Shown here: piece by piece, positions 3,778-61,996 of the stretch | How the letters are laid out: every line of letters begins with the position of its first letter | Numbering within the stretch: position 1 is the stretch's first letter | DNA from: Acholoe squamosa | Lineage: Eukaryota; Annelida; Polychaeta; Phyllodocida; Polynoidae | DNA length: 64,000 bases | Assembly (NCBI GenBank): GCA_949317995.1 | Contig: OX439051.1 | Span: 41,357,250-41,421,249, forward strand | Direction of reading: 5' to 3' | Notes under the pieces: model-generated | The model's database searches: none | Told to the model about the DNA's origin: nothing | Seen by the model: the letters and a program-made list of their open reading frames with translations, nothing else | Translations under genes and position numbers: made by a program

Positions 3778-4017
3778 TTAACCCTTTGATACTGCTCTAA
3801 TGAACTTTTTCTTGTGTTCATCATGATGCGTTAATGCCGCTCCAGCGAGTAACTCGCCAGTGCATCATGCCAACCTGACAGATTGGATATTTTACCGGAG
3901 GTACGGCATGATGCACCAGAGCAGTGCTTGATGCATAAATCTCCAGCACTGCATGAGTGCATCATGACAACCAAGAGACCTGAAGCTGGAGGCATGATGC
4001 AGCCCTGAAAGGGTTAA
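3778..4017. mobile_element. Foldback miniature element, family A (intact-looking copy)
   Basis: The copy begins TTAACCCTTTGA and ends CTGAAAGGGTTAA, so the outer ends are inverted and both carry TTAA. Inside are several GCATCATG/CATGATGC inversions and the phrase CGAGTAACTCGCCAG, which recurs across the window. It has no coding capacity. It is either a non-autonomous DNA transposon or a foldback element. TTAA may be its target duplication, but an empty site would be needed to prove this. Confidence 0.65.
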
Positions 4018-5672
4018 GGACACATTACCATGATGGGATAAGCTTCTATGTAATTTAGTCACCAAACAATATTGCAGTCTAATCAATCTTTGCTGATCAG
4101 GCCAGGCTGCAGGCCGCAGCCTATGTGATATTGCTGATATTGTCTGTTTAGATTAAACTGCCTATAATAAAACTTGATGATATTGTCAGGACAAGTAAAA
4201 TGTATAATGTACCTGTGTATTAACCAGAGCTGTAATGTCTAAAGTATCCGGCATTATGCATTGGGTATCACATCGATCTGATCGTAGTGGCGAATTTAGA
4301 CCCTCTTCCTTTCAGCCTGTATTAAATTAAGAGATAATTCCATCTTTTAGTTTCACATTTAACCAAAAAATAGAGGCTGGATGAACGACGCACCCTCTTT
4401 ATCAAAACCCTAGATCCGCCACTGGATGCTTTGATACCCCCTTCAACTGTTTCCAGCTTTTAAAATCCAGAGGGAATACAGTAGGTGCATGCCTGGTAAG
4501 CTGCGCGTGCGGCATATTGGTTGTAACGGTTCCTTTGAAATCCCTGAGCTGCTATGTAGCTTAGCCTCACACTGAAAAGGTCTTAACTAATAGTGAAAAA
4601 AAATCTTTCAGACTGAATCAGGGCAAATAAAAAATAAGGTTTGTTTCCAGAAACCCGACCGACCCTAGCAAAACAGGGGCAAAAAAACCTTTTTTTTTTG
4701 TAATTTTGAAGAATTTTGTCTCATTTTTTTTCATATTTTAAAGAAATTTTCATTACTTTTTGAGGTTTTTTCCTGTATCCTTTTCGTGTTCTTCCCCTCT
4801 CTCATAGTTGCCATTTTCCCATTATTATTTTAAAAGAAATCAAAGAATTTGATACATCCATTGATATGTGCCTTAACATTTCCTATATAAATGTAAAAAA
4901 AAAAAAAAATAAAAAAAAAAAAAATCCGACCTACCGACCCTAGCTCTTTGAGCTATGTTACTGGAAACACATCTTTTATTTTTCTTGGCCTCAGTACAGT
5001 GCATCTGCAAAATAGGTAAAACTGTTATATTCACCCAATACTGATTATCGTGTATTTTGATATCTTTCAGGTAAGTTTTGATGAGCGGCTGTTTCCATGG
5101 TTACCGGCTATACCCGGATGTATGTGTAGACTGTCGTGTGTGTGTGTGTGGAGGTAGGTGAGTTCCTTAACCTTCTATACAGGGATGGAAGTCTTCACTG
5201 TTTTCCCTGATTTAAGATATTTTCCCGCTCCAAAGACCTACACATTTCTATACAAAACCTATATTTTATAATGGTAAAGGTTGCAAAATGTTTTTCTTTC
5301 CTTTTAATTAAGTCAAATATTACTTTATACTGGGTAATGGGGACAAACTGTTTCTCCAGGGATAAAAGCCAGGTACTTTCTTATACCTACCAACATTCAA
5401 GTACTTCAAGTCTGGGGGCACCTTCAATTTTTCATTCGATTTATTCCTGCTAATGTAGGGTACTGACTTTCTTTTTCATTATGAGTGTAAAAAGGGGACC
5501 CCTTTCAACTCCTGAGCAACTCATTATGATCAAAATGTGCTTCCCCTTCTTCTGGTAAAATGAAATAAGGCATGTTCACCATTTAAAGAGCGCTAATTCA
5601 GCATTACATGATGCCCATTGGTCTGTATGGTGCACTTTATTGGTGCATCATGGTGCACTTTATTAGTGCATC
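4018..5672. other. Non-coding stretch with poly-A/T runs and a truncated family-B fragment
   Basis: Homopolymer A and T runs lie at 4680-4740 and 4898-4923. A sequence starting CAGGGATGGAAGTCTTCACT at 5180 matches the left end of the miniature elements near 8755 and 9088, but I see no right end, so it is probably truncated. A short GT run lies near 5135-5150. No gene was recognised. Confidence 0.45.
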
Positions 5673-5699
5673 ATGCTGACCCTCTGGGAGTGTCTTAAG

Positions 5700-6310
5700 T
5701 CACATTCATGCATCATGCCAACCCTGTATAGCGCTGTATTAATGCATCATGCCGACCCTATGTATAGCGATGTATTAATGCATCATGCCGACCCTATGTA
5801 TAGCGATGTATTATTGCATCATGCCAACCCTATGTATATTGATGTATTGATGCATCATGCCGACCCTATGTATAGTGATGTATTAATGCATCATGCCGAC
5901 CCTATGTATAGTGATGTATTAATGCATCATGCCGACCCTATGTATAGTGATGTATTAATGCATCATGCCGACCCTATGTATAGCACTGTATTAATGCATC
6001 ATGCCGACCCTATGTATAGCGATTTATTAATGCATCATGCTGACCCTATGTATAGCGATGTATTAATGCATCATGCCGACCCTACCGGGTATGTATAGCG
6101 ATGAATTAATGCATCATGCTGACCCTATGTATAGCACTGTATTAATGCATCATGCCGACCCTATGTATAGCAGTGTATTAATGCATCATGCCGACCCTAT
6201 GTATAGCACTGTATTAATGCATCATGCCGACCCTATGTATAGCGCTGTATTAATGCATCATGCCGACCCTATGTATAGCACTGTATTAATGCATCATGCC
6301 CACCGATGCA
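5700..6310. repeat. 36-bp minisatellite array, about 17 copies
   Basis: The unit is 36 bp, with the cores GCATCATGCCGACCC and TATGTATAGCGATGTATTAA. Copies are highly similar; single-base variants such as GCGATG/GCACTG/AGTGATG distinguish them, and one copy near 6083 carries a short ACCGGG insertion. The period is a multiple of three, so long open frames (reading YSDVLMHHADPM repeatedly) pass through it. I regard these as by-products of the period rather than a protein. The core GCATCATGCCGACC is the same motif found in family-A elements, so the array probably grew from one. Confidence 0.93.
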
Positions 6311-6316
6311 TTAGTG

Positions 6317-6445
6317 AATAAGTAATCAATGGATAATTCATGACACGTGTGTGTTAGCAAAGGATAATTACACGAGGGCACAGCCCGAGTGTAATTATCC
6401 TTTGTTAACACACACAAGTCATGAATTATCCATTGACTACTTATT
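6317..6445. repeat. Long hairpin: 57-nt arms, 15-nt loop
   Basis: The left arm (6317-6373) and right arm (6389-6445) are reverse complements with only a few mismatches, for example the core GGATAATTACAC against GTGTAATTATCC. The loop is GAGGGCACAGCCCGA. The hairpin directly abuts the 36-bp array. It is consistent with a small foldback transposon; a transcribed hairpin RNA is possible but unsupported. Confidence 0.85.
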
Positions 6446-6480
6446 TTATTACACGGTACCAATAGATAATCAATAGAATA

Positions 6481-7129: not shown

Positions 7130-7917
7130 AAAGGGTTAACATAGAGTTATCCTGAGGAGACTCAATTTGTGGAAGGTGACAATTTTTTAATTGGCTGTTA
7201 GGTTTTGGAGACATCTCATTTTCAGCCAATCTTTGTAGATCATGTTTTGCAGCGTATGCAAAGGTCAGACCTTTTGTTGGGAAAGCTGAGTGAATAGTAC
7301 CTTATCATAGTATCTTGCTAGTATAAGGAGAACCCACGTATAAACTGATTTTGATAGGAATCTATAATGCACATGCTGGGCTTGATTTAGACTATTAAGT
7401 ATCAATTTTATTTAATATACCCCACCTATAAGATGCATTCTGGCTTTGAGAAGCCTCTACAACGTAGATCTGAGCCCTTCATCGTGTAATACATGTACAT
7501 GTAGTTGCACCTTATAAATAAAGTCATATGAAGGATCAAATATGTTCACAATTTATGGTTAATATCAAACACTTAAAAGGTTGCTGGATAAGTTTCAATT
7601 TTCATTCCAAATATAACACATATCCAACAGCCTTAAACTCCTAAAATTATATCCTGAAGGAGGAGGAGGAGATATAAAACAAACAGCTTCTCAAAATATG
7701 GCTGGGGTCGATTGTGACAAAAACGAGGTTTTGGGTAATGATGCCCCGGGGGTTGATAAGGTGGTTTAGTGTGTAATTAGTACTATGCATCTCTAATCAG
7801 CCCTAGCATGTAGCGGGCGCTAGGAAGCGAGCCGCATGGCGTAAGGCTGCAAATGAAGGAAGCTCATTGAGCAGGAGGAAGGGAAGGATGTTAACCCTTT
7901 CAGGGCTGTGTGCTGCT
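7130..7917. other. No gene recognised
   Basis: Non-coding DNA. A phrase ATACCCCACCTATAAG near 7418 is also present near 201 (ATACCCCACCTATAAGGC), a hint of old dispersed repeats. Nothing else can be supported. Confidence 0.4.
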
Positions 7918-8120
7918 TTAACCCTCTAAAGGCCGCTTGTGAAGGAGTGCATCATGCCCATTGGTCAGCATGATGCACAAATGAAGTGCTGGTGAGACTG
8001 CTCGCCAACACTTGATTGGAGCATCATGTTAACCCTCCAGGACAGAATCAGTTCTGAAGGGTAGACATGATGCATGAATATAGCCCTGGCGAGTTACTCG
8101 TCATGGCTGCATTCATGCAT
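7918..8120. mobile_element. Foldback family A copy
   Basis: It starts at TTTAACCCTCTAAAGGCCGC and carries the family phrases GTGCATCATGCCCATTGGTC, AAGTGCTGGTGAGACTGCTC and CGAGTTACTCG. The right outer end is not clear, so this copy may be truncated. Confidence 0.6.
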
Positions 8121-8573: not shown

Positions 8574-9037
8574 TGTTAAACCCTTTAAGGACTTGACACC
8601 GCAGAAGTAATGTTCCTTGTCCAGGTTCCTTTGTCGTCATGATGCACCAATACAATGCTGGTGAGTCTACTAGTACTTGCCAGCACTGCATTGTAACATC
8701 ATACAGACCTATGTGGACTGTATCAACCTCCACCTGGTCAGCATGATCAGCATGGATCAAAGTCTTCACGATCTTTCCTCATTTAAGGGATTTTCAAGTC
8801 CCATAGACCTACACATCCCTATAGGATGCTAGAGAACCCATATTTTAGAGGTTCTAATCGTGTATTCTAGGGAGTATTGTGCTCAGTCACTTACATCCAT
8901 GAATTCTCCAGGACTGCATTCAAGCAGGGTTGGCATGATGCCTTAAGACATGAGCAGACTCGCCAGCACTTCATTGGTGCATCACGACGACCAATGGGCA
9001 TGATGCACTCTTGCATTAGCAGCCTTTGAATAGTTAA
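8574..9037. mobile_element. Foldback family A copy interrupted by a family-B-like element
   Basis: The outer copy starts near TTAAACCCTTTAAGGACTTG and ends near AGCAGCCTTTGAATAGTTAAA. At about 8755-8898 a different sequence, beginning CATGGATCAAAGTCTTCACG and ending ACTTACATCCATG, interrupts it. After that, family-A sequence resumes with CCAGGACTGCATTCAAGC. The insert resembles the element at 9088-9231, but its target duplication cannot be read cleanly. The order shows that the insert is younger than the outer copy. Confidence 0.55.
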
Positions 9038-9087
9038 ATACCTTAGCACAGATTCCTGATGTAACAAGTTGTCTGTGCTGCCATGGT

Positions 9088-9790: not shown

Positions 9791-9799
9791 ATGCTAAAT

Positions 9800-10701: not shown

Positions 10702-10705
10702 TTAA

Positions 10706-18870: not shown

Positions 18871-18938
18871 AGGCTGTTTGTAGACCTGGGCTTTGAGGCT
18901 AATCTACATGTACAACACCCCAGCTGGTGAGGATTTTG

Positions 18939-19180
18939 TAGCGCTTCAAGGACCGCTATTTCATTAACGCATCATGCCCATTGGTCGTCATGATATATGA
19001 ATGCAGCCTTGGTGAGTAACTCAGCAGGGCTACATTAATGTATCATGCCAACTCTTCGGGTTTGATATGGTCCTGAAGGGTCGGCATGATGCTTCAATGC
19101 TGGAAAGCAGTCTCGCCAGTACTTAATTTGTGCATTGTGCTGACCAATGGGCAAAATGCACTCCTGCGTTAGCAGGTTCA
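18939..19180. mobile_element. Foldback family A copy
   Basis: It contains GCATCATGCCCATTGGTCGT, GAATGCAGCCTTGGTGAG with its inverted partner, GTCGGCATGATGCTTCAATG, and GACCAATGGGCAAAATGCAC. The order matches the best copies near 51393 and 61754. Confidence 0.6.
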
Positions 19181-19559
19181 CATAACCCCCTTGGTTTCCT
19201 GAAAGTGCCTTTGTAGTGCCTGGGCTCAATATTGTATATACATGCTTGTACCGTAAAACCTTGCATATAAGGCATGACTTATACATGAAACTATTCAGTA
19301 AACCTAGCTACACCTTATAGATCTAGCTACACCTTTTTAGGCTCAATATTCTGTGTACAAGGACAGATCCATCCCTGAAGGATTGGCATGAGGCAGAAAA
19401 GTAGATCTTAGAAGGCAGGGTGAGTTCCTAATTGGTGTTGGATGACATGAATATAAAGTGTTGAGAGAATGTGCTGCATTGGTATCGCCAAGAAGTCTAT
19501 TTTAGGCATGACACAGTGCCTAAAGAGCTAACTTCAGTTACATGACCCTGATGGTGTAA

Positions 19560-21520: not shown

Positions 21521-22339
21521 TCATTAAAATGGTGTATTGGATCTTATGGTTTCTCAATCGGACAAGCTGTAATAAGTCTTCTAAGCTTAAATCATGAAGG
21601 AAATATCATGGCTCTAGAAAATATGATCTGACTAGGCGTCAGTGCCAGCTGTGTATTAGCCCCAGTGTACAACAATTTACACAGCAGCTGGTGTGTGCAT
21701 CTCTGGTGTTATGCTGCTTCTATTACATCCTCAGAGACTTATGGAAGGTCAAGGGGTGAAGGTTCTAATTTCAAAATTGAGGTCTAATATTCAATTAGAT
21801 TCTGCTGCTCTCCAGGGTATGATAATGACTAGATTACCTGTGAGTACTGATTATGTCCTATCTGTAATCGATTATATAGTATGCAAGTGACTGTGAAACA
21901 AACTTCTTTTTAAATTTAATTTTTTTTTTAAAAATTTCCATGGCTCTGGTGCGCATAAGGGATGTAAAACATTTTGACCATTGTCAAGGGGGCGTAAAAA
22001 ATGTTTTAGCACATCCGCTTTATAAATCACCATCCATCCCCCCTGTTAAAAAATAATGACCACTCCTAAGAAGATTGTATATTTATTCTATCCTGTTTCT
22101 TGGTAGGGAGATGGTCTGTTCTTGATCACTGAAAGGGTAAAAGCAAACAAAAGAAAGCAATGGAGCCAGGAAGTTTAAAAAAAAGATACACATAAGAAGG
22201 TTGAGCTTTCCTGTGAAGTCCCTAATTTCTTTGTGTATGTTACAAACACAACACACCGCTGAAAGCAGATTAGCCTTTTGGTGATGCCTCTGCTTGATCC
22301 CTTGAAATGCTGCAATGTGCTTTATACTAATTTCTTTGC
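21521..22339. other. No gene recognised; fragment of the 63083-type element
   Basis: At about 21955-22072 is sequence ending CCCCCTGTTAAAAAATAATG plus ACCACTCC, which matches the right end of the element at 63083-63406. It appears to be an older fragment. The rest is unassigned. Confidence 0.45.
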
Positions 22340-22520
22340 ATGGTGCACAAATCCAGCCCTAGTGAATTTCTCAGCAGGACTGCACTGATACAACAAACTG
22401 ACTCTGCGGTTATGATACAGTCCAAAAGGGATGGCGTGATGCATCAGTGCAGTGCTGTTGAGTAGGCGACAAGCACTGCATTAGTGCATCATGACGAATG
22501 AAGCTGGAGGCATCATGTGG
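22340..22520. repeat. Foldback family A fragment
   Basis: It contains GGCGTGATGCATCAGTGCAG, CACTGCATTAGTGCATCATG and GAAGCTGGAGGCATCATG. The same closing phrase is found in the copies at 3778 and 36748. Confidence 0.5.
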
Positions 22521-25500
22521 TTATTTAAGGTTCACAGACACTGCCTGAGAATCTCAGCCTCAGGACTGTGACATTCCTGTTGTGAATGCCACTTTTCTGT
22601 CATACAGCCAATTTAGAGCTGGGCACATCTCATAGGTTTAGATATTGGCTATATTGGCTGGTCTGTGGATCTAGGGAGTAGCTGTGGAGAGATACCAGAT
22701 GTTCCTTATGGTTAACTTAGAATTCCACTCACCCAATGGTATTTTGACCTTGTTTTGGCTCCAAATTGACAAATTTAGCAGATTGAAGCTGATAGGTCAG
22801 GAAATGGTCATAAATTATGTTGAGTTGAAAGGAAAGTGAGATGAAAGAAAATGGACCAGCAGCCCAAGATTTAGAGTTTGGTACATTCTGCTGTATATTC
22901 ACTCCCGGGTTCACTCTATCTAACTGAACATCACCACGTGAGCTACAAAAGAAATAAGCTTTTCGTATTTTGTGGGATCATATATGTTACTTAAAGGCCA
23001 TGAACTCAAGGGCTTGAGTGGAATGAATAATGTCAAAACTCCAGAAAGCACTACTCTGAGAAATAGCTCTGTGTTAGTAATACACACATGTATACATATA
23101 CTAACTTCTACAAAAGATGGGCCTTGCTACCCAATTGTTAGTATTGATCCCTATAGTACTGTATTGTGGCCAGGGATGGTAGGAAATCTCCATACTGAAG
23201 GCCAACACTGCTCATGTAACACTCATTATCAAGATATACTACATTACCCAGAATCTTTACGCAATATTTGGCATACCTGATTATTCACATATATATGATA
23301 CACAACAGGCAGTCGCGACAGATGCTTGTGTTAATATTGATTATTTGGCTTACAGTAATAATATTGGCGTTATGGTAATATCGATGACTGTACATGGCAT
23401 TCGCCCGGGTTCTACCCCATTCTTACCTTTGTGGCTGGTGTAGATATTGAAGAATTGATGACAGCATCCAAAGAGAATCTGACCCTTCAAGAACTGTGTG
23501 ATAGGTTTACTTCAATATCCAGTCAGCCAACTCTCCAGGGAGCAGAAATATCATGGCACTCAATGGACATCGCCAAGTTATTGAATCAGTTCTATTTAGC
23601 TATTAAGTAGTTGACAATGTTCATTTAGCATGGTACTGATTTCCTGGATCCCTGGATTGGTGGTGGAGGGTGAGGGATGTGCATGGCAGACTTAGGTGAA
23701 TCTACTTTATAATGCTTTCAAATTGATGTCCGTTAGTCGTCATCATGCAATGATGCAGCCCTGATGCCCGTTTAGCATCAGTACATCCTGCCATGGAGTA
23801 GCTCAACGTCATAGGTTAGCATTATGTATAAATAGAGCAATGGCGAGCAATGGCGAGTTATTCACCAGGGTAACATTCAATACATTGCGACAACCGACCA
23901 AGTGGCATAAAACATTGAATAACTTAGCTGCCCTTTAATGGTTCATGGACATGTAGAGACTGTCCTTTTGATGTAAGTAATCTCCAGAGTGCAGTTGTAA
24001 TTTGGGAAGTGGGAGGTATTGTCAGACATGGACAAGGATGCTATAAGGGATTTATCAGTTGACCACAGCGCCATTGTGATGATGGCATTGGCTGGGCAGG
24101 GGACTATTTTTCAACTGCCTTGAGTCTTTAACATGTTTAGGCTAATGCACCTTTTGTCATTGCTTTCCTATTCTACAGTATTTATAAGTAAGGGGAGTAA
24201 AGCAATGGCCATATAAGTCCCTTGTCGTTTAAGGACAGAATAATGCCTGAAGGCATGTGTCCATTTGTTATGATACACAACTGCAGCAGGGTCAATCCAT
24301 AATCAAGTCAGTTGACCTCTTTGTTCTGCATTTCAGCCAATGGTGGTGCATCAAACTTGGGTGGTTGACATGATACATGAATGCAGCAATGGTGTTTCAC
24401 CATAGCTGCATTCAAGCATCATGGCATAATACAAGTCCCTTTTAGCTCTTAAGTTTAAAGAGCCAGGAACTGGAAAAGATGGCTACCCACAGAGACTAAT
24501 TCACTATGTAGCAGTATTACCATTGAATCATTGTACCAAGGCAATGCTGCTCACTGTCTGTCTGTACATGGCTAAGTGCTACGAGCAACTCAATCACAGC
24601 TCACAGAGGCTCTGTAACTGCTCCTCCCTGTGTGGCCGATGACCCACATTGGACTCATCAAAGGCTACATAATATCTCCAAGGTTGTGCTCCTTTGTATG
24701 TTTACATCTATTGTAAATTGCCACCAATATGCCGCACCTGTACATAAGTCGCACCCTGACTTTAGGAGAATGCCTCTGTAATAGTCTATTTATAAGCTGT
24801 GGCTTGTGCATACGTGGGGTTCTGCAGTAATGCGCTGTTGGCAAGTGACTTGGCAGCACCACATTGGTGCATCATACAATCACATAAACAGTAATAAAGC
24901 ATTACTGCTCTATGCATTGCATTCCCCCTTTAAGGTTGAACGACACACCGAAGTGATATCATTGAAGTGGGTTGATTAACTGTCAGAAATTACACTCTGG
25001 ATGAGCTGGTAGATTAAATAGGAGGCTAAGTAGATTAGGTAAAGGAGATATAGAGTGCTTAGACTGATGAAACATGGTTAGGCTTATAGTCTGTTACAAC
25101 ACTGGTTTTAGCATAAATCATGACAATTATTGATTGGGGATGAACATATGTCCGATCTCTTCGATTTCAACCGAAAATATATGCATCAACAACACCATCA
25201 TACTGGGAGGAAAAGGTATAGATATCAATAGGGGGGAAAGACAAATAGTGTTCAGAATTTTATCCAGAGGCGATATTTGTACATGTACTTTTAGAATTAG
25301 ATGTACACACTAAAAGCTTTGAGGCATGCTTCTAACTCTGTTATCCTAGCTCTCAATTTCTAGACAAACTCTTGATAATGAACCTTCTGATGGTAGCTGT
25401 GAGTTCTTTTTATGCGTTGATGGGAGGATGTGAGCAGCAAAGAGAGTACACTACATCTGTATGAACATCGATCTGCTCACAGTGACTCTGAGTGACTCAT

Positions 25501-26580: not shown

Positions 26581-26663
26581 AGCAGGGTTCTCCACAGACT
26601 GAAAAATGAAAATGTGGTTGGCAATCGCATAGTCCTTAGTTTATTGTATCATCCGGCCGTCAG

Positions 26664-26845
26664 GAGTTGAGTCGCTAGGGCTGCATTCATGCATAGTGGT
26701 GACCCTTTGGGAGCGTATCAATCCTCTATGGTAAACATGATACGTGAATGCAGTCATGACGTCATTCACCAGTGCTGCATTCATACTGCATCATGGTAAG
26801 AAAATGGACATGATGTTTTCAATGCACTAAAAATTATTAACCCAT
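26664..26845. repeat. Foldback family A fragment
   Basis: It contains GTCGCTAGGGCTGCATTCAT, TAAACATGATACGTGAATGC and CACCAGTGCTGCATTCATAC. Outer ends are not clear. Confidence 0.5.
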
Positions 26846-27163: not shown

Positions 27164-29308
27164 ACTGTCAGTTACAACCTTCTTGCTCAAAGGCAGTCTA
27201 TACGAAAAGTTTTTCCCCTCACAGGCCATTCAGTCCTACGAGTTTTATCATTCCGCAGGCCCGGATTGATTTCACCAGGACCGAATACTTCATGATTTTT
27301 ATTGTCAGGAAAGAAGTAATGAAAAAGAAGAATTAACTTGCAATTTTAATCATTCAACTCTTAAAAATCTAGCAAAAAGTAATTCTTCTGAGTTCTGTTT
27401 TAGGCTGTAAAAACCTTAATAATATTCCAATTTGCCAGCCATAAAAAATATGAAGCCCAAGGTCCCTAGATTACATGAATCCTGTCGGCCCGGCAGCGAT
27501 TTTGTCGGCAAAAGCCGATGTCTGGCGAGTTTTTGTTTTGACTGCTAAGACAACGCCATATTGCCCTCAGTTGAAAATGGAGCTGACTGAATGATTTCCA
27601 GTCACCGACCAACACAGACCTAGAGCTTTAACCCTCTGAGGACAACAGGTTACACCTACAGTTTTGACCCTTTGAGGACCAGTGCATCTACAGTTTTAAC
27701 CAAGTTGCCCCTGAGTAATAAATGGAGCTGACTGAATGATTCCCAGTTACAGACCAACACTCTGTTCTCCTTCACTAAATGTCGTCTGCTCTGGCTGTCT
27801 ACACCAGCCTCCACAAAGACACCTCCCAATCAATCAGTCTGCAGCCAAAAAAAAATCTTGGTTTTATCTATTTGGTGAGCCGCCGACGCTTGTTTCCCTG
27901 AGGCCATTGTAGACTAAACATAAATGATTTAGCTCTAAATACCAGCGTCTGTCTTTTCTAGCCTTCCTGATCAGTTCCGCTGTCCCAAGGTGCTTTGCAG
28001 GCTGCTGGTACCCCGTATGTTTAAAGCTCATTCATTGCCTGATGTGGGGAACCAGCGAACAACCTGGTCTGTGACCTTGACCTTCAGGAGTATCAATAGG
28101 ACCGGAAGAGGATAGCCCTTAGAATCCTTGCCTAAGGGTTTAGTGACTAGACTGTTTTGAAAGGGTACACATAGCTCTCCTAGTAGGAGACTATTAGTCT
28201 ATTTGGACAGTAAGACCTTGGGAATCTAATTGGGTTCTTGAAGGTCTCAGTCTGTAGATGGAACCATAGTAGTATGGTGCTCAATGATCGAACCATTCAA
28301 TCGAATTTTCAGGGAATCTAAAAGAACTTAGGCCTACCTATAGAAAGAATATTGGGTGTATTTTCATTATACCTGGTCAGGCTTCTCAAGGTCTTCTCCT
28401 CTTTTCTGCCCTCTTTGTCCGCTGCACATAGTATGCCTGGACAAAGTCAAAAACAATTTGTATTATTTCTTACACTTCTAATCAGGCTCAAATTGCCCTC
28501 TGAGATCTCTTACTTCTGAGTTTGGAAAGCAGATGAACAACATACGATAATTATTAGATGTTCCAAGTGGGTATTTCTGTTATGTGAGAATTAAAAGTAC
28601 TCTTAAATATGATCAAATGATCCAACGCAAAATGAAATCAGAAGAGAATGATAATAGTGCAAAACTTCTACGCCTTCATAACAAGTGAATTGAAGCTAAA
28701 TTACTAATTTAAATGCCATTAGAGAATAATCTGTCCATTGGACACACTTTGCTTGTCAAATTAGGGAGACACAGAATTAGCTTTGCCCTTTGGAGGCATG
28801 CGCCGGCGCTAATTTTACCATGTAAACAACGAACAAAAAAAGCAGTGTCACAAACATCAAAATAAGCAGCACGATAGTGGGAGTCCCTACAACCAAAAAT
28901 ATCAGGTATATTTGTGAAGGTGAGGGTAAATGTTGTGCCATATTTTGTCCACAGACTATGAATTGTCCACATGAAGAATCTGGGCTGATTCGCAAGGATA
29001 AAGAGTGCTTTGTGAACAATTTGCAAGGCATTTTGTGGACATTTTGAGTCTAATTTGTCCTAATAACATAAGGACAAATTAGAGAGCCATACTTGGTAAA
29101 TGACTAAAAAAAAAAGGAAGAAACAAAAGTTATAAAATAGGGGAAAAGTAAATATTTAAGAAGGAAAAAAGGCTCAGAGGTCTGTCAGCCATGCAGCGGT
29201 GCCACTTTTGGAGGGAAGGGAAAAAATAGAGCAGTAATATTCAACTGAACACGCTTCAGTATTTTGATGATGATCTTTAAGTTGAGGAAATACAGGCCAT
29301 GATATTTT
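27164..29308. other. No gene recognised; one duplicated block and a small hairpin
   Basis: A block with AATGGAGCTGACTGAATGAT is present twice, near 27577 and 27720, with similar flanks (TTGCCC..., GACCAACAC). A perfect 12-bp-arm hairpin CTAATTTGTCCT...AGGACAAATTAG lies at 29050-29082. A 105-codon minus-strand frame at 28709-29026 is unrecognised. Confidence 0.45.
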
Positions 29309-36747: not shown

Positions 36748-36991
36748 AACCGTTTGATGGTCGCATGGCACTTTGACGCACTGAGACTAGTGATGGCCAC
36801 CATGGTGCATTAATGCAGACTGGTAGAGTTACCTCTCAGCACTATCAATGCATCACACACAACACATTGGGTTGGTACACTCCTAAAGCATTATGTGTCA
36901 ATGCACTTCTGCCGAGTAGACTCGCCAGCACTGCATCATGCCGACAAAGGAACATGAAGGTGGAGGCATCATGCAGCCCTTACAGGATTAG
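36748..36991. mobile_element. Foldback family A copy
   Basis: It begins AACCGTTTGATGGTCGCATG and ends GAGGCATCATGCAGCCCTTA plus CAGGATTA. Internal phrases CTCGCCAGCACTGCATCATG and GAACATGAAGGTGGAGGCAT match the copy at 3778. Confidence 0.55.
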
Positions 36992-38530
36992 GTGAGAGCT
37001 AAGTGGTATTGAAGACCAGTTTGATGGTTTAATGTGACTACAACTGCCACCCTACATGGTCAGTTAGGTCTGTAGTACATTCTGTACTACCCTACTGAAG
37101 GCAGAAGACGTGTCAGGAGTGGCTCTTTCTCTGCCAATGGGAGACCTTAATGCATTTTACATATTGTCACCTCAGTGCAACAAGGTTGTAACTGAGTTTT
37201 CTTCTGTTTTAACATGTTTTTGCCCTTATCTATCTTTTATGACAGTACTGAAGCACTGTCTACAATATGTGTGCCTACAGGCCCTAGGGTACTCTTTGTT
37301 ATATCAACTTGGTGCTATAGTAATTCGAACACTTCTTTTCCAGCAAAACTTTAAAACTGCAGTCCTAACTTTGTTGCACTAAGGAGACGATGTTGGCCTG
37401 TATTAAACACCGACGCACTTATTGTCATTGCTTAGATGTTCCCAATGTCTAGATGTGAATTGCAGAGAAGGCATTCAAAGATATGGTCTAATGAGTCAAG
37501 CCATAGCTGTGGCACAGGATGTTCCTAGAGTCTATGGGCTTTTTATAGACAGGGTGCGGCTTATAACATTGAATTAAAAAAAAATGGAACATAAAATCCA
37601 GAATGTCCACTGTAGATCATTATACATATATTACTCTACCATAATGAGGCCCAAATAAACTGACCTCCTCCTATATCCTGTGGCTTACTCTTGAGTCTAT
37701 TCAAATATCAACCAGGACTGCCTACAGATAGTAAAAGTTGTGCCTGTGACGTCATCATTTCCAGCAGACGACATTTTATACGAATTTCCTGCCTCCGCTG
37801 GGCCCTGGCCAACCACAGTGCCGTCAGATGGGACTTCCGGGTACCTTCTCCCCTGCATGGCCTCTGCTGGTTTCCGGTCTGTGCCGAATTCAGTGAGCAC
37901 GCCCTGGCCTCTTTAAGATGGGTACCGGCCAGCACCTATCATCATCTGGGGGCACTTTAGCAGCGAACTAAAGAAGGGCGGGTATAGGTTCTTAAGTGCC
38001 AAAGGGGGAGGTAGGGGTGAACAAGGGACTAGTCTATTACCCTGCTACCCACCTAGTCTACCCCCTGGATTGATCCGACACACCCTACCCATATAGGGAG
38101 CTGTGACTGGCACGTCTAGGAAGCCGCCATATTGTCCCCCGAAACATTATCTGCTTCAGTCTGTTAGTAGACAGAAGTGAATAATCATGGGATTTTCCTT
38201 GAGATCTGCACTACATGTGTTGCTAAACACATAATGAACAGTGCTGATTCAACCCCATGAAATACCTTTACATGGTATAGCCTAACTCTTCAATTATTGG
38301 CCTTTTCTAATCTCAGCCTCTCACTCCAACTCCCCTCCCCCCAGCCCTAAAGCTGCAGCTACAGTCAAAAAGATTCACTCTGTTCCCTCAGTCGAGAGTG
38401 TCATGGGAGTGAGGCTTGAGTTTTCAGGCTATATGTGGGAGCAAATATTCATGAGTTGGAGGCAAAGATTTTAATTACATGTATATACATAGCCTAACAT
38501 ATGGGATCAATTCACTATTGCTGTACTTCC
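36992..38530. other. No gene recognised; GC-rich patch at 37740-37960
   Basis: The patch contains TGACGTCA (37746-37753) and ACTTCCGGG (about 37830), motifs that occur in promoters. Open frames run on both strands, with no recognised protein. GCCGCCATATTGTCCCC near 38126 recurs in variant form at 42420-42480, 57825 and 58140-58230, so part is a dispersed repeat. Promoter activity is only a possibility. Confidence 0.35.
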
Positions 38531-46646: not shown

Positions 46647-47016
46647 GTAAGTTGTTATAAATTCAAATTTAAAAATTTTTTAATTTTTTTTAGAGGTTAA
46701 ATTAATGTTAATAGGAAAGAACCCCGCATCTTGTCTACAGATGAGCGTGTCTATACACTGTATATTAGAGCCTTAGTACGATCTCTAGGAACTCCCTGAA
46801 TTTAGGGTAGATCTTATCTATATGCAGGTTTTTGATCATTAATAAAGAACTGGAACTGCAGAAACTCAAAACCACAAATTTGGCTTAATAGGTTAGCCAA
46901 AAGTCAGGGTGCGGCTTATGTGTGTGGGTGCAAGGTTTTTGCGGCAGGTCCAATATAACTCCCCACTTCCCTGAGTCACATTCAAATCATCAATAGATGA
47001 AGGAGCTCAGTGGGTC

Positions 47017-47254
47017 ATTGAAGGGCTGCTGATGCAGGAGTGCATCATACCCATTGGTCGGCATGATGCACCAATGAAATGCTTGTGAGGCTGGTTGCCA
47101 GCACTTCATTGGTGTATCATGACGACCCTCTGAGAGTATGTAAACCCTGTCGGGTTGGCAGGATGTTTGAATGTAGCCTTGGCGAGTAATTCGTGCATCA
47201 TTCATGCATCATATTGACCAATCGATGATGCATCAGCGGCCGTTAAAGGGTTAA
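47017..47254. mobile_element. Foldback family A copy
   Basis: It contains CTGCTGATGCAGGAGTGCAT, CCCATTGGTCGGCATGATGC, GCCAGCACTTCATTGGTGTA, and ends GCGGCCGTTAAAGGGTTAA. The outer left and right segments are inverted (GATGCAGGAGTGCATCAT / ATGATGCATCAGCGGCC). Confidence 0.7.
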
Positions 47255-50200
47255 CACACGCCCACCACAGGGTCGGAGCCAGGATTTTGAAAAGGGGGGC
47301 GCGCCCTCATTTTGCCCCTAATTTTGGCTAAATTCTAGGGTAAAAAGAGTTAGGTAAACTCTTAAGTACAGGGGAAAACGGGGGGGCGCACCCCCTGTGC
47401 CCCCCTCTAAATCCGCCACTGCGCCTGGTCACCACTCAGTGGTACCTTCATGAAACGTGCTAATTAGCCATCATCTATCGGCCCTCACATGATGGCCCTG
47501 TCTCACTAGGGATTCCGACTAAATGTCGTCTGGGCGGTTTCCAAAGGAACCCGTCAATAAATCAATAGCTGGGAGCTGCTTCCGGTCTGTCTGACTAGTG
47601 AAGTAGCCAAAGTAACGTGCTGACTATGTGTATCTGGTCACACTCTGACTTAGAAAGGTCTGTTATTGGAGGACGAATAGTGCATCAGGTCCATTGAATT
47701 TGTCATAATACATGAATATAGTCATACCAGGGTTTCATTCATAAACATTTATAAAGCATGGTGCCCTTGAAGGCTTACACGGCTACATAGGTGAAAGCTA
47801 AAATGTTCCTGTGATGTATCTTATCATTATATCCTATTTCATGATGGGCATTACATAAAAGGAAATGTATCAATTAGCCAACAGAATAAATGATCTTGTG
47901 GGCCATTTGATATAAGATTTAGGACATAATTTGGACCATAATTTCTGTTCAGGGCTTTATAGTGCCAAAGCTAAAAAGAAAATGAAAAAGAAAAGATGGA
48001 CAAAACAGTATTTGTGTATGGATAGAACAAAGTAGTGACCAGTAAAACAGGCAGCCCTTACTTCCTCTTTCAAATTCTCAAACCCCTCACATCCCCAGAC
48101 AGGATTTGCAACTACCTTTATTATGTTATTGGCTAGCCAATAACATAGTCACGTAAGGGGAGTCGATGCAACGGAATGTGGCCAAATGGGTAGACTTGCT
48201 CACATAAAAGTCCTTAGTGTTCACATAGGATTAGACAGAGACAAGTAGCTTGGACAAGTCTAAGGTACCTGGATCTAGGGGTTGAGGAAGCTTCCTTAAA
48301 AGTTTTAAGGACAAAACTCAGTTTAATATTTCAAATCTGAAAGAGGTATTTGTCATGTTACAAGAGGATTTTAAAATGTCAGGATGTGGTAAAGTCATTA
48401 GTCATTATAATGACAAAACTCCTTTGTTAGATGGAAGTTATACATGTATTGGGATGAAAAAGTAAAATGCACAGATTGTCTCAAGGTGAGTTTAGCCTTC
48501 AGAGAAATAGCCATGTACATGCTCACACATCTGGATGGACCAGATATAATCCTCTTAATTAGGTAGTAATTATGTAATTGGCTTATTGGAAGTAGAGGTT
48601 CCAGCTTGCTGCACAAGGGGTTGAGTGGGTTGTACTGTTTACCTGTGACCATTAACCCCTTCAGGGCCACCTACATGTATAATAGTATAAACATATGATA
48701 CATGTATTATATTGACGGTAGCTATGATGCAGGATGTGAAGTGTTATATTATATTTGCATGTAGCATACCACTTTTGCATGTACATGTAATTTCATATAG
48801 TCTAGCCCTTTGAACATAGAAACCAATAACATCTTAGGGCTGTGAAATAGCCCTAACCTTAAACATTTTTGGGTATGTTTTCTCTGATGATTTGTTCCCT
48901 CAGACATTTTCCTTGTATTGTTCAATTCCAAGGAATTTAAAGGCTAACTGAAGTCTTTAGTCTCCACTGGCCCAGTCTCATAACTTCTTTCTTATCAGTC
49001 GGAACCTAGAATGAAATAGGTCATCTGACACTGATTGAAAAACACTTTTCAAAATGTTGGGAGCTTATAATGCTAATCAAAAGTAAAGCTTGAGAATGAT
49101 CTGTCGCAGTCTCGACAGGGGGAGGGGTGATTTTCTGATGAAAGAAAGGCTCTGGCATAGAGCTATATAATATTAGCAATCACAACTTGAAAAGACATCT
49201 CCAGATAAAAGGGGCATCCTATCCCCTTTCCAGGCCATCAGAAACCACATCAGACACCGCACTCTGATTGGACAGAAAATCAGCCAATCAGCATCTCAGT
49301 TTCAGTGAGTGCAGTGATTGTACCGGCTGGTACCCAGCTGGTGATGTTCTGCAAGGTAGAGTGGTCGTCTTACCCACCACATACCAGCGAGTCGCTTTCC
49401 CGCCTTTTTCTGAAAGTCGTCTGCCAGAAGAGAAATTGATCACGTTGTTGAGTGGTCTCTCCTGTGATGGCCATCTTGCTAATGGACTGTCAGTGTTACT
49501 ATGGCAACAGTCCTAGCTCAATATGATGGACCTAATGAAGTTGTCCCACTAAGATTCTGACCTCATCGTACCATTGAAGTTCTTGTCAGTCAACAATTTG
49601 CCTCATTTCCATCGGTGCATTAGGTTGACCCTTCATGAGTAAATAAACCCTGAAGGGTGTCAGCGGTAGGTCTGCATTCATGCATTATGGTGACAAATTG
49701 TATTCAGAGGTAGCAGGTTGTCACATGGGCGTCGTCATTGCTGAAGCTTGTAACCAGCGACTTCTACTGATAAGACCTATCAGATGGGTACCAGTTGGCC
49801 CCCGAAGGACCGCAGTGAATAGATTGGGGTTCTTTCATTGGCTAATAATTAAACCTGCTAAGATTATAAGTCAATATGCAATACTAAAAGGGTAAACCAA
49901 ATATGGGAAGTGATCTGGAGGAATGATAATCCTCCGGGCCCTTACTCAAAACAGGCTGATATTCAAAGCCCATTTAAGGTGTATTACATCGCTCCATACC
50001 GTTAGTGCTTATACGAGACCCGCATTTATAACCAACAATACTGTAGAACTTGCCCTCTGCCCACGTCCTGATTTACCTTAGCTTATTACTCATAACGCCA
50101 TCTCGGAAAACACACTCCCAGATGCCATTATGCCTAATGGCCGAATCTGATTGGCTGTCGGTCTGAGGTGGTGGGGTCAAGGGCCCCAAAGCTGCAGGTG

Positions 50201-51392
50201 CATCCTGCAGAGAATGTTAGTAGGATATTGGTGGGTCTGGACTTGACTGCAGGAGGCGCCGTGAGAGATGGGTATTTATATTAAAGACGTTTATTTGGCC
50301 ATGTCAATGCGGGCCAGGTGGCCACCCATACGCGGCCCACCAGGGTTGGCACAAGAACAACTGAGTGGCTATAACTCAGTGTGGTCGCTGGCATCCACTC
50401 CTCTGGCCAAGGCATATATATAAGCTGGTCTGTGGATTTTTGTCCAAAGTTTGAGGAATAAAAGAAGAAAACAAAATGGCATGAAATAGTGATATTTTCA
50501 GGGAATTGTTTGCTGTTCCCTCAAAAAAAAATATTAAATGATTTGAATTTTACCCCAAAAAAAATCACAAAAATAAAACTTAGAAAATGAGGCAAGTTAA
50601 AATTGTCCACTGACCTTTAGAGGACAAAAGTTCCAATCCTATAAGACACACAGTCACTTAGGACCTACTTTGAGACAATTCTATAAGGCATGGCATATAT
50701 GCCACACCTTATACACGAAGTACTGTAGTACCTAGTTTTATAAAGGAGTTGTACATGAGAACATGATATGTGCTATTGTTTGTGTCTCTCCCTACCCCAC
50801 TGCACTGTGTGTGTAGAACAGTGTGTGTGTGGGTGGGTGGAGAGGGGTGCAGGTGTCATTTTCAACATGGTGGCATCATTTATTCATAAACTATATAGCG
50901 TTCCCTCCCTACCCCAATCCCTCCCACTGCACCCAGACAAACACTGTACTGTCTGAGACAATGGTTTTATATCATGAAAGCATTTTTATGTAGGATTGTC
51001 AGAGTTTTATCCATATTCTGTTTACTCGCTTCCCCGCTCCCTTCCTCATTTGCTCGCTCCCTCCCTTGCTCACTCCTTCCCTGAATTGCTAACCAATTCA
51101 CTCATGTATTCTTTCACTCAATAATCCTCTAATTACTTACCCACAGTCTTCCTAGTCGGTGGCTTGTTCCCTGCGTCTCACTTAACAAGATTCAGGCTGT
51201 AATAATGGCGGATAATTCGTTTTTACAAACCCAGCTCATCAGTGATTGAAAGATAGCATCCTTGACAGCGTCTTCTATTTTAAGACCTTGATTGATAATT
51301 AAGGCAAGATTAGTCCTTAACAAATGAGCTCAGGAAGAGCGGTGATTGTATGAGCACTGATTGGGGGAACTACAAGATGAAACGCAGTGAAC

Positions 51393-51646
51393 ACTTTAAG
51401 GACCACTGATGCATGAGTGCATCATGCCCATTAGTCATCATGATACATGAATGCAGCTCTGGCAAGTTAGCCGCCAGGGCTATATTCAAGCATCATGCTG
51501 ACCCTGTGGGATTGATGCAGTCCTAGAGGGTCGGCATGATGCTTCAATGAAGTGCCGGAGAGCAGACTTGCCAGTACTTCATTGGTGCAACATGCTGACC
51601 AATAAGCATGGTGTACTCCTGCATCAGTTGCCCTTAAAGGCTTAAG
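51393..51646. mobile_element. Foldback family A copy (one of the most complete)
   Basis: The outer ends ACTTTAAGGACCACTGATGC and GCATCAGTTGCCCTTAAAGG are inverted. Between them lie two hairpins: GAATGCAGCTCTGGC with GCCAGGGCTATATTC, and CAATGAAGTGCCGG with CAGTACTTCATTGG. Compared with 61754 the two hairpins are in reversed order, showing that this copy is in the opposite orientation. Confidence 0.72.
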
Positions 51647-52894
51647 AGCCACATAGTATTCATTTCCTTTGGTCATCATGTTAGCATGACAACAACGGTG
51701 TTGATTAACTCACCCGTGCTGCATCCTAGCAACATACCGGTTACAATTGAAGAAGCGCATGATGTGCCAACACAGTGCCGGTGAGTTACTCGCCAGGACA
51801 TCAAGGATGGATGACCATAACAAACAAACACAAATACTAAGGCAGTGTGTGGTCCTTTAAGGTATAATAGATGTATTTTTGGATGTTTTCATTCCATCAG
51901 CAGACAGGTCCTCTTAACCTGTAGTTGTTAACTTGTTTTGAGTTTTGCTTTGATTATGGTTGTTAACTATTACTACTGCACATCAAGACTTATTAAGGAA
52001 ACAAGACAGCGCAAAAAGACACCGTCATTCCTTTCAACCTGGGACTCACTCCTAGCTGCACCCTATCCTCCTTTCTTCTCTCCCTTTCATCTTTCTTTTT
52101 ATCTTTTGAAGGTTCTATGCTCGCTCACTCTTCTCCCCGTCCTTCTGCTTTCCGCCATTTCTTTCTCCCTCCTCCCCTCAGTTTTCCTCCTCCCTCAAGT
52201 CTCTACTTCTTCTTCCCTCCTACTTAGAACCCCCATACATTGTCGGTCCAGTCAACCAGACATTAGACTTACCGTACGCTACTGTAATTAACTTGTTCTC
52301 TCCTTAATCATTCTGTGTGTTGCTATGGCAACTGAAGCACCCTAGACAACACAAGCTTAGATCTTTAACCATTCCTAGAGGTATTTTAGAATGCCAGAAG
52401 TGAAAATAGTTCCTCCTGCAACAGTCAGTTTAAATAGACTGAATATTTTACGAGAGGTATTAGCATTCTGAGATTTTTACCTCAAGAGGCAGAGCATGAG
52501 GAATGTATGAGGATCAGTGGGGTTTGTTTACAGCTCAGAGAGGCTCTTAGTGTAGTTTCCTAATCAGACACCCCTCCCCCACATAACCCTCAAAAGCAAG
52601 CAAGCCTGCAAATACTACCTTTAGTTACAAAATTCTCAAAACTTTGAAAATGATGGAAACAAATTATTTAGAAACATTTAAGAGAGAAGAAAAAAGGTAT
52701 ATTTTGCAAAATAAACAACAGTACTTTAAATTCAAAACATTTTTAAGAAATGCCAAAAAAGCCTCCAGTTTCGTTTGTGTGTTCACTATTCATGTTGTGT
52801 ACATGCAAGTGAAAGTGTAGACTTTGGGTAGGCCCATGCTTCAGATGTGTAGTGAATACAGGGTTTGACAAGACTTAAGTTACCATTCTGCTCA

Positions 52895-55535: not shown

Positions 55536-55680
55536 TACTTCTGTATGTGATCATTGTCTAAAATTATTTTAGGGTTAGATAGTTTTGCCAAATGCTGTCC
55601 CTTTACTGAAAAGGAAAAGTGGCAACATTTTGTTTGAATATTTAGAGAAATATGTATACGTTATTATTTGAGATCTAAAG

Positions 55681-60366: not shown

Positions 60367-60575
60367 CCGTAAAACCTTGGTCACAAGCCGACCCCTTCAT
60401 AAGCCGGGGGTAGACTTTGGGAAAATATTATAAGCCGATTTTAGGGTAGAATTTGAAGTTTTTTTAGTAAAAAAAACCTCAGTCATAAGCCGGGGGTAGA
60501 CTTTGGGATAAATTTAAAAGCAGGCTTTAGTCAAAAATAGGGGGGAAAATCTGGCTAATAACCGGGGTTTTACGG
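60367..60575. mobile_element. TA-flanked family C element (CCGTAAAACC subgroup)
   Basis: The ends CCGTAAAACCTTGG and CCGGGGTTTTACGG are inverted and flanked by TA (60365-60366 and 60576-60577). AAGCCGGGGGTAGACTTTGG is present twice inside. No coding region. Confidence 0.8.
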
Positions 60576-61119
60576 TACCATAAAAATGTATGTACAGTTG
60601 TTAAGAGATAAATAGGGCTTCAGAAACGGAAAATTTGGGGTTATTTCTAGTCTAGAATATGGGAAAGCAGAAGTGGTGTGCGCTTTAATTAGGGTATGCG
60701 TGCTAATTACATTGAATACGGTATATAGATATAGATCGTGAAAGGAAAATATATCAATCCATAATGAGAAAACCTCTGATACAAACCTCAGAACCAATAG
60801 GACTTTCGGCATCTTTGGTCAGTCGATGTACGGTTATTGAAGCTAGAATCTATTATAGAAATCTTGTACTATCCATCCGTATTTGTTGAAATCAGAATAC
60901 GATACAAATGATATTAAAATTCTGTTGATAGGCCACACCAAGTGATTTTGATCCATGGATCAAAGTATATCCTTGTTTTTGAATTTGATAGAGGCCTAAA
61001 AAAGAATGTCTTTGAAAATTTTATGTATTTGCCTACTTCACTGTTGAGAGAGGTAAAAATAGTGAAGCATTATGGCCATGCAGCACATTGACAAACGAAT
61101 ATAAAATCAAAACAATCTC

Positions 61120-61388
61120 TTAACTCTTAAAGAGCTGCTAATACAGGAGTGCATCATGCCCATCAGTCGGTATGATGCTCAAATGAAGAGCTCACGATTC
61201 TACTTGGCAGCACTTCATTGGAGCGTCATACAAACTTTCCGGGAGTATATCAATCAAGTCGGCATGTTGCATGAATGTAGTTCTGGCAAATTACACCCCA
61301 GGGTGGTACACACATGTACTTGCCTACATCCATGCAGCATGTCGACCGGTGGGAATGAAACATTACTGCATTATCAGCCTTAAGAGGC
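61120..61388. mobile_element. Foldback family A copy
   Basis: It starts TTAACTCTTAAAGAGCTGCT and ends CATTATCAGCCTTAAGAGGC. Inside are AGGAGTGCATCATGCCCATC, GGCAGCACTTCATTGGAGCG and GGCATGTTGCATGAATGTAG. Confidence 0.65.
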
Positions 61389-61483
61389 TCACAAGAGAGA
61401 ATTTATGGTATTAGTAGCAGTATTAGATTTGGTGTGGCCTGGTGTTGAGGTGGTGTTGAGGTTGTTGTGTCTGTATGTTGTAG

Positions 61484-61510
61484 AGTAGCCCCCCGGTAGC
61501 TGACTTACAG
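61484..61510 (+). CDS. CTNNAL1: Candidate alpha-catulin microexon, 27 nt
   Basis: AG of TTGTAG ends at 61483, and GTATAC begins at 61511. The 27 nt between are in phase with exon (j) and encode SSPPVADLQ with no stop. A T/G-rich run, GTTGTTGTGTCTGTATG, precedes it. In the family this position is a variable linker before the C-terminal region, where a short in-frame cassette exon would be tolerated. The donor is weak and no sequence match backs it, so it may be a chance pair of splice-like sites. Confidence 0.35.
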
Positions 61511-61753
61511 GTATACCCTCAGTAGTAAGTATTACAGTTTGGGTCGCGTGCCGTGCCTACCGCTCCACCCACAACCCCATACTAACCCACCCACAGAGAT
61601 GCCACTTTTCCTAACTTTACAGGAAGTCCCAAGTTTTTCTCTGTAATTTCTATAAGCATTCCTATTGGAAATTGAGAAAAGTAGGGTGATTTCCGAATTT
61701 TCAGATATCATTGAGTGTGGCATTCCTGAAATTACCACTTTCCCAAAAGTTGA

Positions 61754-61996
61754 TAACCCTGTAAGGGCCACTAATGCAGGAGTGCATCATGCCCATTGGT
61801 CGGCATGAAGTGCTGGCGAGACTGCTCGCCAGCACTACTTTGGTGCATCATACAGACCTATGGGGGTGTATAGACCCCGCACGGTAGGCATGATTCTTGA
61901 ATACAGCCCTAGCAAGTTGCTCTCCAGGGCTGTATTCATGCATCATGACGACCAATGGACATGATGCATTAATGCATTAGGGGCCCTTAGTAGGTT
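61754..61996. mobile_element. Foldback family A copy (representative)
   Basis: The outer ends (TAACCCTGTAAGGGCCACTA and GCATTAGGGGCCCTTAGTAG) and the segments AGTGCATCATGCCCATTGGT / ACCAATGGACATGATGCATT are inverted. Between them are hairpin 1, GTGCTGGCGAG-ACTG-CTCGCCAGCAC, and hairpin 2, ACAGCCCTAGCAAG...CTCCAGGGCTGTATTC. The element is about 240 bp, non-coding, and strongly self-complementary. Confidence 0.75.

Follow-up and report, generated by a model that had tools for sequence, protein, structure and literature searches.

Profile searches of the analysed stretch of DNA, 64 kb in length (hereafter the window), revealed 29 non-overlapping loci of a repeated element, designated family A, which occupy 5,333 bases (8.3% of the sequence). 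The profiles were seeded with 4 copies and then iterated, and the 29 loci were picked by hand from the matches; the list covers sequence outside a 36-bp tandem array, and three weaker matches (9701-9814, 21140-21259 and 46167-46210) were excluded from it. In the controls, comprising 10 dinucleotide shuffles and the reversed window, the fourth of the four profiles produced one 9.8-bit match and the other three produced none. Family A elements are approximately 255-260 bp long and have no coding capacity. Twelve of the 29 loci reach at least 200 bp, and the remaining ones are parts of the element. The copies are dispersed in both orientations and their flanks are unrelated. The distinguished features are as follows (window coordinates).

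61753..61998, + strand: well-preserved copy with outer stem and hairpins, found with the profile (MFE -141 kcal/mol, z -16)
61782..61801, + strand: subterminal motif GTGCATCATGCCCATTGGTC of the 61753 copy; its inverse lies at 61950-61969
61810..61835, + strand: inner hairpin 1 of the 61753 copy, GTGCTGGCGAG / CTCGCCAGCAC
61853..61889, + strand: central hairpin of the 61753 copy, weaker than in the consensus and not named in the initial annotation
61899..61937, + strand: inner hairpin 3 of the 61753 copy, GAATACAGCCC...GGGCTGTATTC
51388..51646, - strand: full-length copy; TTAA at the 5' end near 51642, TGAA at the other end
47014..47255, + strand: full-length copy; the right end reads TTAACCCTTTAACGGC inward
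18938..19182, - strand: full-length copy with decayed ends
61118..61391, + strand: near full-length copy; left TTAA retained
7917..8120, + strand: copy without the 3' end; left TTAA retained
3779..4019, - strand: diverged copy; TTAA at both ends
22296..22534, - strand: diverged copy
36747..36992, - strand: diverged copy
51647..51867, - strand: diverged copy directly adjoining the 51388 copy
23709..23945, - strand: degraded copy
24220..24425, + strand: degraded copy
8579..8757, + strand: 5' part of a copy
8891..9038, - strand: partial copy; one end retains TTAA
9555..9717, - strand: partial copy
26651..26829, + strand (orientation uncertain): partial copy
29298..29489, + strand (orientation uncertain): partial copy with right-end TTAA
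34801..34981, - strand (orientation uncertain): partial copy with left-end TTAA
5575..6335, + strand: copy whose middle has grown into an array of 16.6 tandem 36-bp units (5704-6304)

The number of loci agrees with the initial annotation, which had reported about two dozen copies of a non-coding, abundant foldback element with inverted outer ends, a description that was supported, and had correctly given its span as 3778..61996. Each of the four motifs named there as repeated occurs above shuffle chance (21, 11, 12 and 5 matches in the window vs shuffle means of 0.06, 0.01, 0.38 and 0.00, respectively), and the motifs follow one fixed order across copies, as had been proposed, rather than being scattered at random. 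The outer-end motif overcounts the copies, because 11 of its 21 matches are located inside two 50-bp tandem arrays (10439-10705 and 12449-12969). More diverged copies with a different subterminal sequence (e.g. 3779-4019, 22296-22534 and 36747-36992) had been overlooked.

The consensus of 31 copies is predicted to form an outer stem and three hairpins, with 117 pairs and an energy of -221.5 kcal/mol (z -26.3 against shuffles, both as RNA and as DNA); an earlier consensus from 8 window copies gave 112 pairs. Judging from this modelled fold, the reconstructed ancestor of family A looks like an almost perfect four-armed palindrome, i.e. a cloverleaf. Both inner hairpins described initially are present, but a third, central hairpin lies between them in the consensus fold; the expectation that transcripts would fold strongly is in line with the predicted RNA structure. 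The outer stem comprises 56 pairs; inverted repeats of such length, which can snap back, are a feature of foldback elements. The inverted repeats are not built of internal tandem repeats, another foldback feature; tandem repeats occur only in some copies (e.g. 5575-6335), and the box present in family A recurs in both orientations, not tandemly. Three copies chosen for two perfect 16-base ends, L057, L058 and L059, have fold energies of -127, -131 and -165 kcal/mol, respectively. L058 alone matches the profile from one end to the other; L057 (237 bp) and L059 (294 bp) are rearranged. The canonical four-armed form thus does not follow from perfect ends.

The extreme fold of the consensus could mean that family A is a structured functional RNA, or a source of microRNA or hairpin RNA, whose fold is kept by selection. 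In the 31 copies, pairs are kept in 1,809 of 2,258 cells (1,721 expected from independent mutation) and 48 double changes at pairs were counted (35 expected), small excesses that are consistent with such a role. However, the double changes are spread over 28 pairs, 17 of which are affected in a single copy and none in more than 4 copies. Fold strength drops with copy divergence (Spearman -0.78 for the 29 window loci), only 12 of the 29 loci retain a strong fold (z below -4; above -4 in 17), and no Rfam family reached its gathering threshold in the window. Pairs are lost almost as expected of independent mutation, slightly more of them being kept, and the decay of the copies is close to neutral; the fold is not kept by selection across them. 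Because fold strength decays with divergence and independent mutation nearly accounts for the loss of pairs, the predicted folding of transcripts carries no sign of function, and an RNA role for family A is very unlikely. The age of the copies had escaped the initial annotation: the 31 measured copies (12 from the window) diverge by 11-31% from their own consensus, and the 17 weakly folding loci no longer fold strongly. A tRNA scan of the window identified no tRNA genes.

The ends of family A read TTAA followed directly by CCCTTTAAGGGC. In 43 loci fetched from outside the window, 13 of 27 ends are directly flanked by an exact TTAA, and 20 of 27 if one mismatch is allowed (background of 0.54% and 7.1%, respectively), and no clear base preference beyond TTAA was seen at these ends; exact TTAA was found at 5 of 18 ends in the window. 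The column majority over the 27 ends is CCCTTT, which the consensus carries at both ends, in agreement with the CC[C/T]T sequence that is given, together with TTAA, as a piggyBac hallmark (PMC2872659). Among piggyBac end motifs, CCCTT is described as the most conserved, and the duplication is usually TTAA (PMC10813416). We interpret family A as a non-autonomous DNA transposon (MITE) of piggyBac/TTAA type (probability of about 0.86); it appears to be a mobile element that is old, abundant and non-coding. The inverted frame proposed initially was retained, but its ends are those of a piggyBac/TTAA MITE, an element of known kind.

TTAA is also used by Kolobok elements, and the Xenopus T2-MITE likewise has an amplified internal segment, so family A might be a MITE of that other TTAA-using superfamily (PMC6004289). 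According to the same source, however, Kolobok ends are RR and T2-MITE ends AGGRR, whereas the 27 ends of family A begin with CCC and neither terminal sequence was found at them, which makes this assignment extremely improbable.

No empty site was detected in the window by joining flanks, and no convincing one among the fetched loci. Genome searches with two insertions gave none either: the genome has a single copy of the L032 site, and further matches to the L057 site are all duplicates, of which the three that have both halves carry an insertion. In L029, a 53-base stretch spanning the L057 join is matched at 77%; inspected by eye, it was taken for another repeat and rejected as an empty site. 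These searches thus do not distinguish a duplicated TTAA target from a TTAA that closes the inverted repeat.

The 1.48 Gb genome contains 90 matches to the piggyBac transposase (PF13843). Seven of the loci behind these matches (L050-L056) were read, and none has CCCTTTAAGGGC at both ends. L050 and L051 are elements of 3.1 and 3.3 kb with a transposase frame and TTAACCCATT ends. The piggyBac elements L050, L051 and L054 resemble family A in TTAA, the CCC start and inverted ends, but their ends are CCCATTTAACCC, CCCATTAGCTCC and CCCTCTGAGCCC, they are 2.7-3.3 kb long with transposase sequence, and the family A profile has no match in them. L056, in which a piggyBac transposase and an exact 49-base family end are 1.3 kb apart, was for that reason first taken for an autonomous partner; the matching far end is absent from the 6.6 kb read, and the candidate was rejected, as it seems to be an ordinary family copy split by an insert of ~1 kb. 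At L053 and L055, tandem repeats with TTAACCCTTT and a GCATGATGCA box adjoin transposase genes. These arrays seem to lie outside the transposons (for L053 as judged from L054) and were therefore not accepted as an end shared with family A.

Parts of family A form tandem arrays, one in the window (5704-6304) and others elsewhere, in one region covered by L005-L009 and at L032, L033 and L045. Such arrays could suggest that family A consists of scattered satellite DNA units with a secondary foldback appearance; yet no array unit amounts to a whole element, and the full-length copies, which lie scattered in both orientations, have many TTAA ends and unrelated flanks, so a satellite origin has hardly any likelihood. 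Some copies of the MITE arose when a chromosome segment already carrying one was duplicated: such a segment is present at 3.49 and 3.50 Mb of C1 and, inverted, at 3.12 Mb, while a fourth place, at 3.48 Mb, matches it on one side only.

Exact matches in the genome number 6,344 for GTGCATCATGCCCATTGGTC and 6,600 for the 16-base end TTAACCCTTTAAGGGC (0 for the reversed-pattern control of each). Copies with an unchanged 49-base end are concentrated distally, 37 of 39 lying within 15 Mb of contig ends vs 35% expected; a control MITE is even along C1, and an unrelated repeat examined likewise is spread evenly. The likeliest explanation for this concentration of little-changed copies in the outer ~16 Mb of the contigs would be that insertion or copying resumed at a later time in distal chromatin only.

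In the proposed mechanism, the inverted ends of family A would be bound by a piggyBac transposase encoded at another locus; this enzyme would cut the element at TTAA and paste it into another TTAA, with the repeated GGCATGATGCA boxes as its putative binding sites. The inner hairpins may have arisen via duplication of a box-plus-hairpin unit, and the palindromes may favour slippage or unequal exchange that turns element pieces into tandem arrays. It is conceivable, though rather unlikely, that this piggyBac-type MITE, in its original form a near-perfect four-armed palindrome, has recently spread only in the distal ~16 Mb of the chromosomes because it was amplified in a palindrome-dependent manner (hairpin-driven template switching or distal ectopic exchange) and not by transposase alone. 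If so, arm-to-arm copying would have left the small surplus of kept and double-changed pairs as its trace, and L057 and L059, with perfect ends but rearranged, would be products of this amplification.

MITE and foldback families are common; what is notable in family A is the four-armed form (117 pairs in ~260 bases), the several tandem arrays and the distal concentration. One genome thus makes it testable whether palindromic MITEs are amplified by way of the structure they form, and what restricts a transposon family to distal chromosome regions.

Exact searches of viral contigs, a set from which records of this genome were possibly left out, gave no match to a 20-mer of family A or to a 29-base inner pattern. 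The sole match in a bacterial genome (L001) was taken as chance, since the family profile matches nothing there. A full-text literature search with the end and box strings gave no transposon paper, by title, among the matches listed, and no title among the matches listed in the literature searches describes the element.

Among known systems, the T2-MITE/Kolobok elements of Xenopus share with family A the TTAA target and an internal segment amplified into repeats, and differ in their AGGRR ends, as opposed to CCC (PMC6004289). Tetris, a foldback element of Drosophila virilis, is likewise non-autonomous with long inverted repeats, and its internal repeats seeded satellite arrays; it differs in its repeat unit of ~220 bp and in that an autonomous relative was reported as not found, and the available description mentions neither TTAA/CCC ends nor a cloverleaf layout (PMC4079207). 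CMITE, the piggyBac-like MITEs of Acropora corals, are multi-copy and non-coding with TTAA flanks and CC[C/T]T ends, form tandem arrays and apparently depend on piggyBac transposases of the same genome, as does family A (PMC2872659). Compared by description, CMITE are ~100 bp long, their inverted repeats measure 13-14 bp and 75 bases of the interior are conserved (PMC2872659), whereas family A is ~255 bp long and has an outer stem of ~56 pairs and three inner hairpins.

The assembled host genome comprises 1,481,437,319 bases in 63 contigs, and the window lies at C17:41357250-41421249. Within the window, four motifs of family A, the non-coding foldback element under study, matched 21, 11, 12 and 5 times, as against no more than 0.38 expected, and 11 of the 21 outer-end matches fell within two 50-bp tandem arrays. 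Iterated profile matches distinguished 29 separate loci covering 5,333 of the 64,000 bases, in a list that omits three weaker matches. In the controls (10 shuffles and the reversed window) three profiles gave no match and the fourth gave one, of 9.8 bits.

A consensus of eight window copies folded with 112 pairs, and a second one, whose 31 copies (12 from the window) each covered 150 model positions or more, with 117 pairs at -221.5 kcal/mol. The strong folding proposed in the initial annotation was supported: the 31-copy consensus scored -219.5 as RNA versus -88.3 (sd 5.0) for dinucleotide shuffles (z -26.3), and -133.9 as DNA versus -41.9 (sd 3.5; z -26.3). The layout of the element, from 5′ to 3′, is as follows.

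Layout of family A
Part 1: TTAA, then CCCTTTAAGGGCTGCTGATGCAGGAGTGCATCATGCCCATTGGTCGGCATGATGCA, forming the outer stem on its 5′ side
Part 2: hairpin 1 (CCAATGAAGTGCTGGCGAG...)
Part 3: central hairpin (GCATCATGCCGACCCT...AGGGTCGGCATGATGC)
Part 4: hairpin 3 (ATGAATGTAGCCCTGGCGAG...)
Part 5: outer stem on its 3′ side, with AAAGGGTTAA at the end

The box GGCATGATGCA is repeated in the element in both orientations. With at most one mismatch, the window holds 33 such boxes in the listed loci, 17 in a 36-bp array and nine elsewhere, five of the latter within a 52-bp array (19.8-20.2 kb) or next to it. Since the ends of piggyBac and piggyBat contain palindromic motifs (PMC11707139, in excerpt), these boxes are plausible transposase binding sites.

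Individual copies diverge from the consensus by 18.5% on average (11.3-31.4%, 31 copies). The median fold z of the 29 window loci was -2.4 (12 below -4) versus -0.8 for 60 control stretches (two below -4), and fold strength rose with profile similarity (Spearman -0.78). Under independent substitution per copy, 1,721 of the 2,258 paired cells of the 31 copies were expected to be paired and 1,809 were; double changes numbered 48 versus 35 expected and affected 28 pairs; for 17 of these pairs only one copy carries such a change. The eight window copies gave 536 of 664 versus 521, and 14 double changes versus nine. Because the structure was taken from the same copies that were tested, and subfamilies inflate such counts, we interpret these counts as nearly neutral decay plus a slight excess that is unexplained. 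Among three copies chosen for perfect 16-base ends, one, L058, fits the whole length of the profile; L057 and L059 fit only as rearranged pieces, which speaks against a simple picture of the family.

For reading the ends, the profile was trimmed to CCC...GGG and the four outer bases were read where a match came near its end (within nine positions in the window, three elsewhere). An exact TTAA was found at 5 of 18 ends in the window and at 13 of 27 in 43 fetched loci (20 of 27 with at most one mismatch); the background in 200 kb is 0.54% and 7.1%, respectively. Bases -5 to -12 of the fetched loci were without clear preference. TTAA is identical on both strands, so its presence alone does not distinguish a target-site duplication from TTAA as the terminal bases of the repeat. 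Searches with joined flanks found no empty site for L032, whose flanks are single-copy, or for L057, whose flanks recur only in duplicated segments. Two of these, at C1:3.50 Mb and 3.12 Mb (inverted), carry both halves with an insertion between them, and one at 3.48 Mb the left half only; some copies therefore spread by duplication of their surroundings. Judged by the end hallmarks of piggyBac-type elements (PMC10813416 and PMC2872659, both in excerpt), family A works like piggyBac/TTAA MITEs and, by its testable end features, belongs to them, with a putative TTAA duplication and a putative partner transposon. Membership of Kolobok, whose ends are RR/AGGRR in the excerpt of PMC6004289, was rejected.

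Exact genome counts were 6,344 for the 20-mer GTGCATCATGCCCATTGGTC, 6,600 for TTAACCCTTTAAGGGC and 1,773 for a 26-base end, with none for each reversed control. In twenty 10-kb stretches taken at round coordinates, 14 matches were found (1,721 bases, 0.86%); the share of the window, for which the cut-off was looser, is 8.3%, about ten times higher. The piggyBac transposase domain PF13843 matched 90 times, in places several times per gene. Three loci are TTAA-bounded piggyBac elements, L050, L051 and L054, with ends CCCATTTAACCC, CCCATTAGCTCC and CCCTCTGAGCCC, respectively. L050 (372-3442) and L051 (175-3445) have matching ends and open transposase frames of 486 and 443 aa; for L052, L053 and L055 no clear end pair was found within the stretch read.

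The first 100 matches of the 26-base end, which are those listed, all lie on C1 (127.1 Mb; matches to 116.0 Mb): 74 at 0-15.7, eight at 15.7-112.3 and 18 at 112.3-116.0 Mb, borders that were set after viewing the positions. A control MITE from the window, TCAGGGATGTAAGTCTTCAGG, has 531 copies, with C1 alone covered completely; its C1 copies number 9, 50 and 4 at 0-15.7, 15.7-112.3 and 112.3-127.1 Mb. Up to 116 Mb, the distal:inner ratio is 92:8 among matches listed versus 10:50 (odds ratio 57.5, p 7e-23). All 44 exact copies of a 49-base end were listed, and 37 of the 39 on contigs of known length (the other five are on C11, C16 and C18) lie within 15 Mb of a contig end (35% expected, p 5e-15). 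For an inner 40-mer (116 copies), 100 matches were listed, 94 of them on contigs of known length and six on C11 and C16; of the 94, 85 are no more than 16 Mb from a contig end (expectation 37.5%, p 1e-26). A second repeat, from the L057 flank, equals the length expectation (12 of 33 within 16 Mb; hand count of the 36 best-scored places, 33 of them on contigs of known length). In these statistics exact patterns select unchanged pieces rather than whole canonical elements, copies within one duplication are not independent, and contig ends are treated as chromosome ends. Matches inside chromosomes were weak at C1:30 Mb, C1:90 Mb and C17:20 Mb and stronger at C10:20 Mb and C12:20 Mb; the window itself, with its copies, also lies inside a chromosome, 22 Mb away from the C17 end.

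The sequence of the window is of animal origin: just two of its open frames reach 150 aa, both within a tandem array. Matches to the Pfam vinculin family at 43.8-44.0 kb (E 3e-9) and 45.3 kb (E 2e-7) fall just below the cut-off; named relatives of the former stretch are mostly alpha-catulin, and its closest relatives are without a name. Together with a third segment, they are probably exons of one alpha-catulin-like gene.

Other features of the window
43729-44094: probable exon, alpha-catulin-like (vinculin family) gene; Pfam match just below cut-off
45255-45608: probable exon, same gene; Pfam match just below cut-off
54252-54656: probable exon, same gene; by eye, without Pfam match
26985-27162, 30738-30919, 38891-39083: second MITE, about 190 bp, inverted ends TCAGGGATGTAAGTC
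44808-45044, 55333-55537: element of about 210 bp, inverted ends CCGTAATCTC...GAGATTACGG, TA on both flanks
15168-15349, 25821-26023, 26399-26576, 31243-31449, 31904-31991: dispersed repeat of about 200 bp

The second MITE, which we take to be hAT-like, is the control MITE (its 21-mer end occurs 531 times exactly genome-wide, evenly along C1); its copy at 38891 is nested within a 30-bp tandem repeat. Copies of the dispersed repeat are about 75-95% identical; others lie in the L057 flank and at further places in the genome.

The 50-bp tandem arrays (10439-10705 and 12449-12969) have a unit that includes AGTCCTAAAAGGGTTAA, with 3 mismatches in 19 positions to the family A end, and are possibly derived from a piggyBac-type end. 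Both adjoin a direct duplication of about 480 bp (10702-11155 and 11967-12445, 94% identical). Arrays of 37-38 bp with TTAACCCTTTATGGATGGCATG stand beside two piggyBac transposase genes (L053, 28-280; L055, 3129-3500); arrays rich in TTAA may act as hot spots for insertion. The 36-bp array (5704-6304) is embedded in a family A copy, with the 5′ end at 5575-5700 and 3′ sequence following to about 6335. Repeated matches to parts of the element also occur in one region spanning L005-L009 and in L032, L033 and L045. These pieces in arrays may be compared with Tetris, described in the excerpt of PMC4079207 as a foldback element feeding a satellite, and with the coral CMITEs, which likewise form arrays (PMC2872659, in excerpt).
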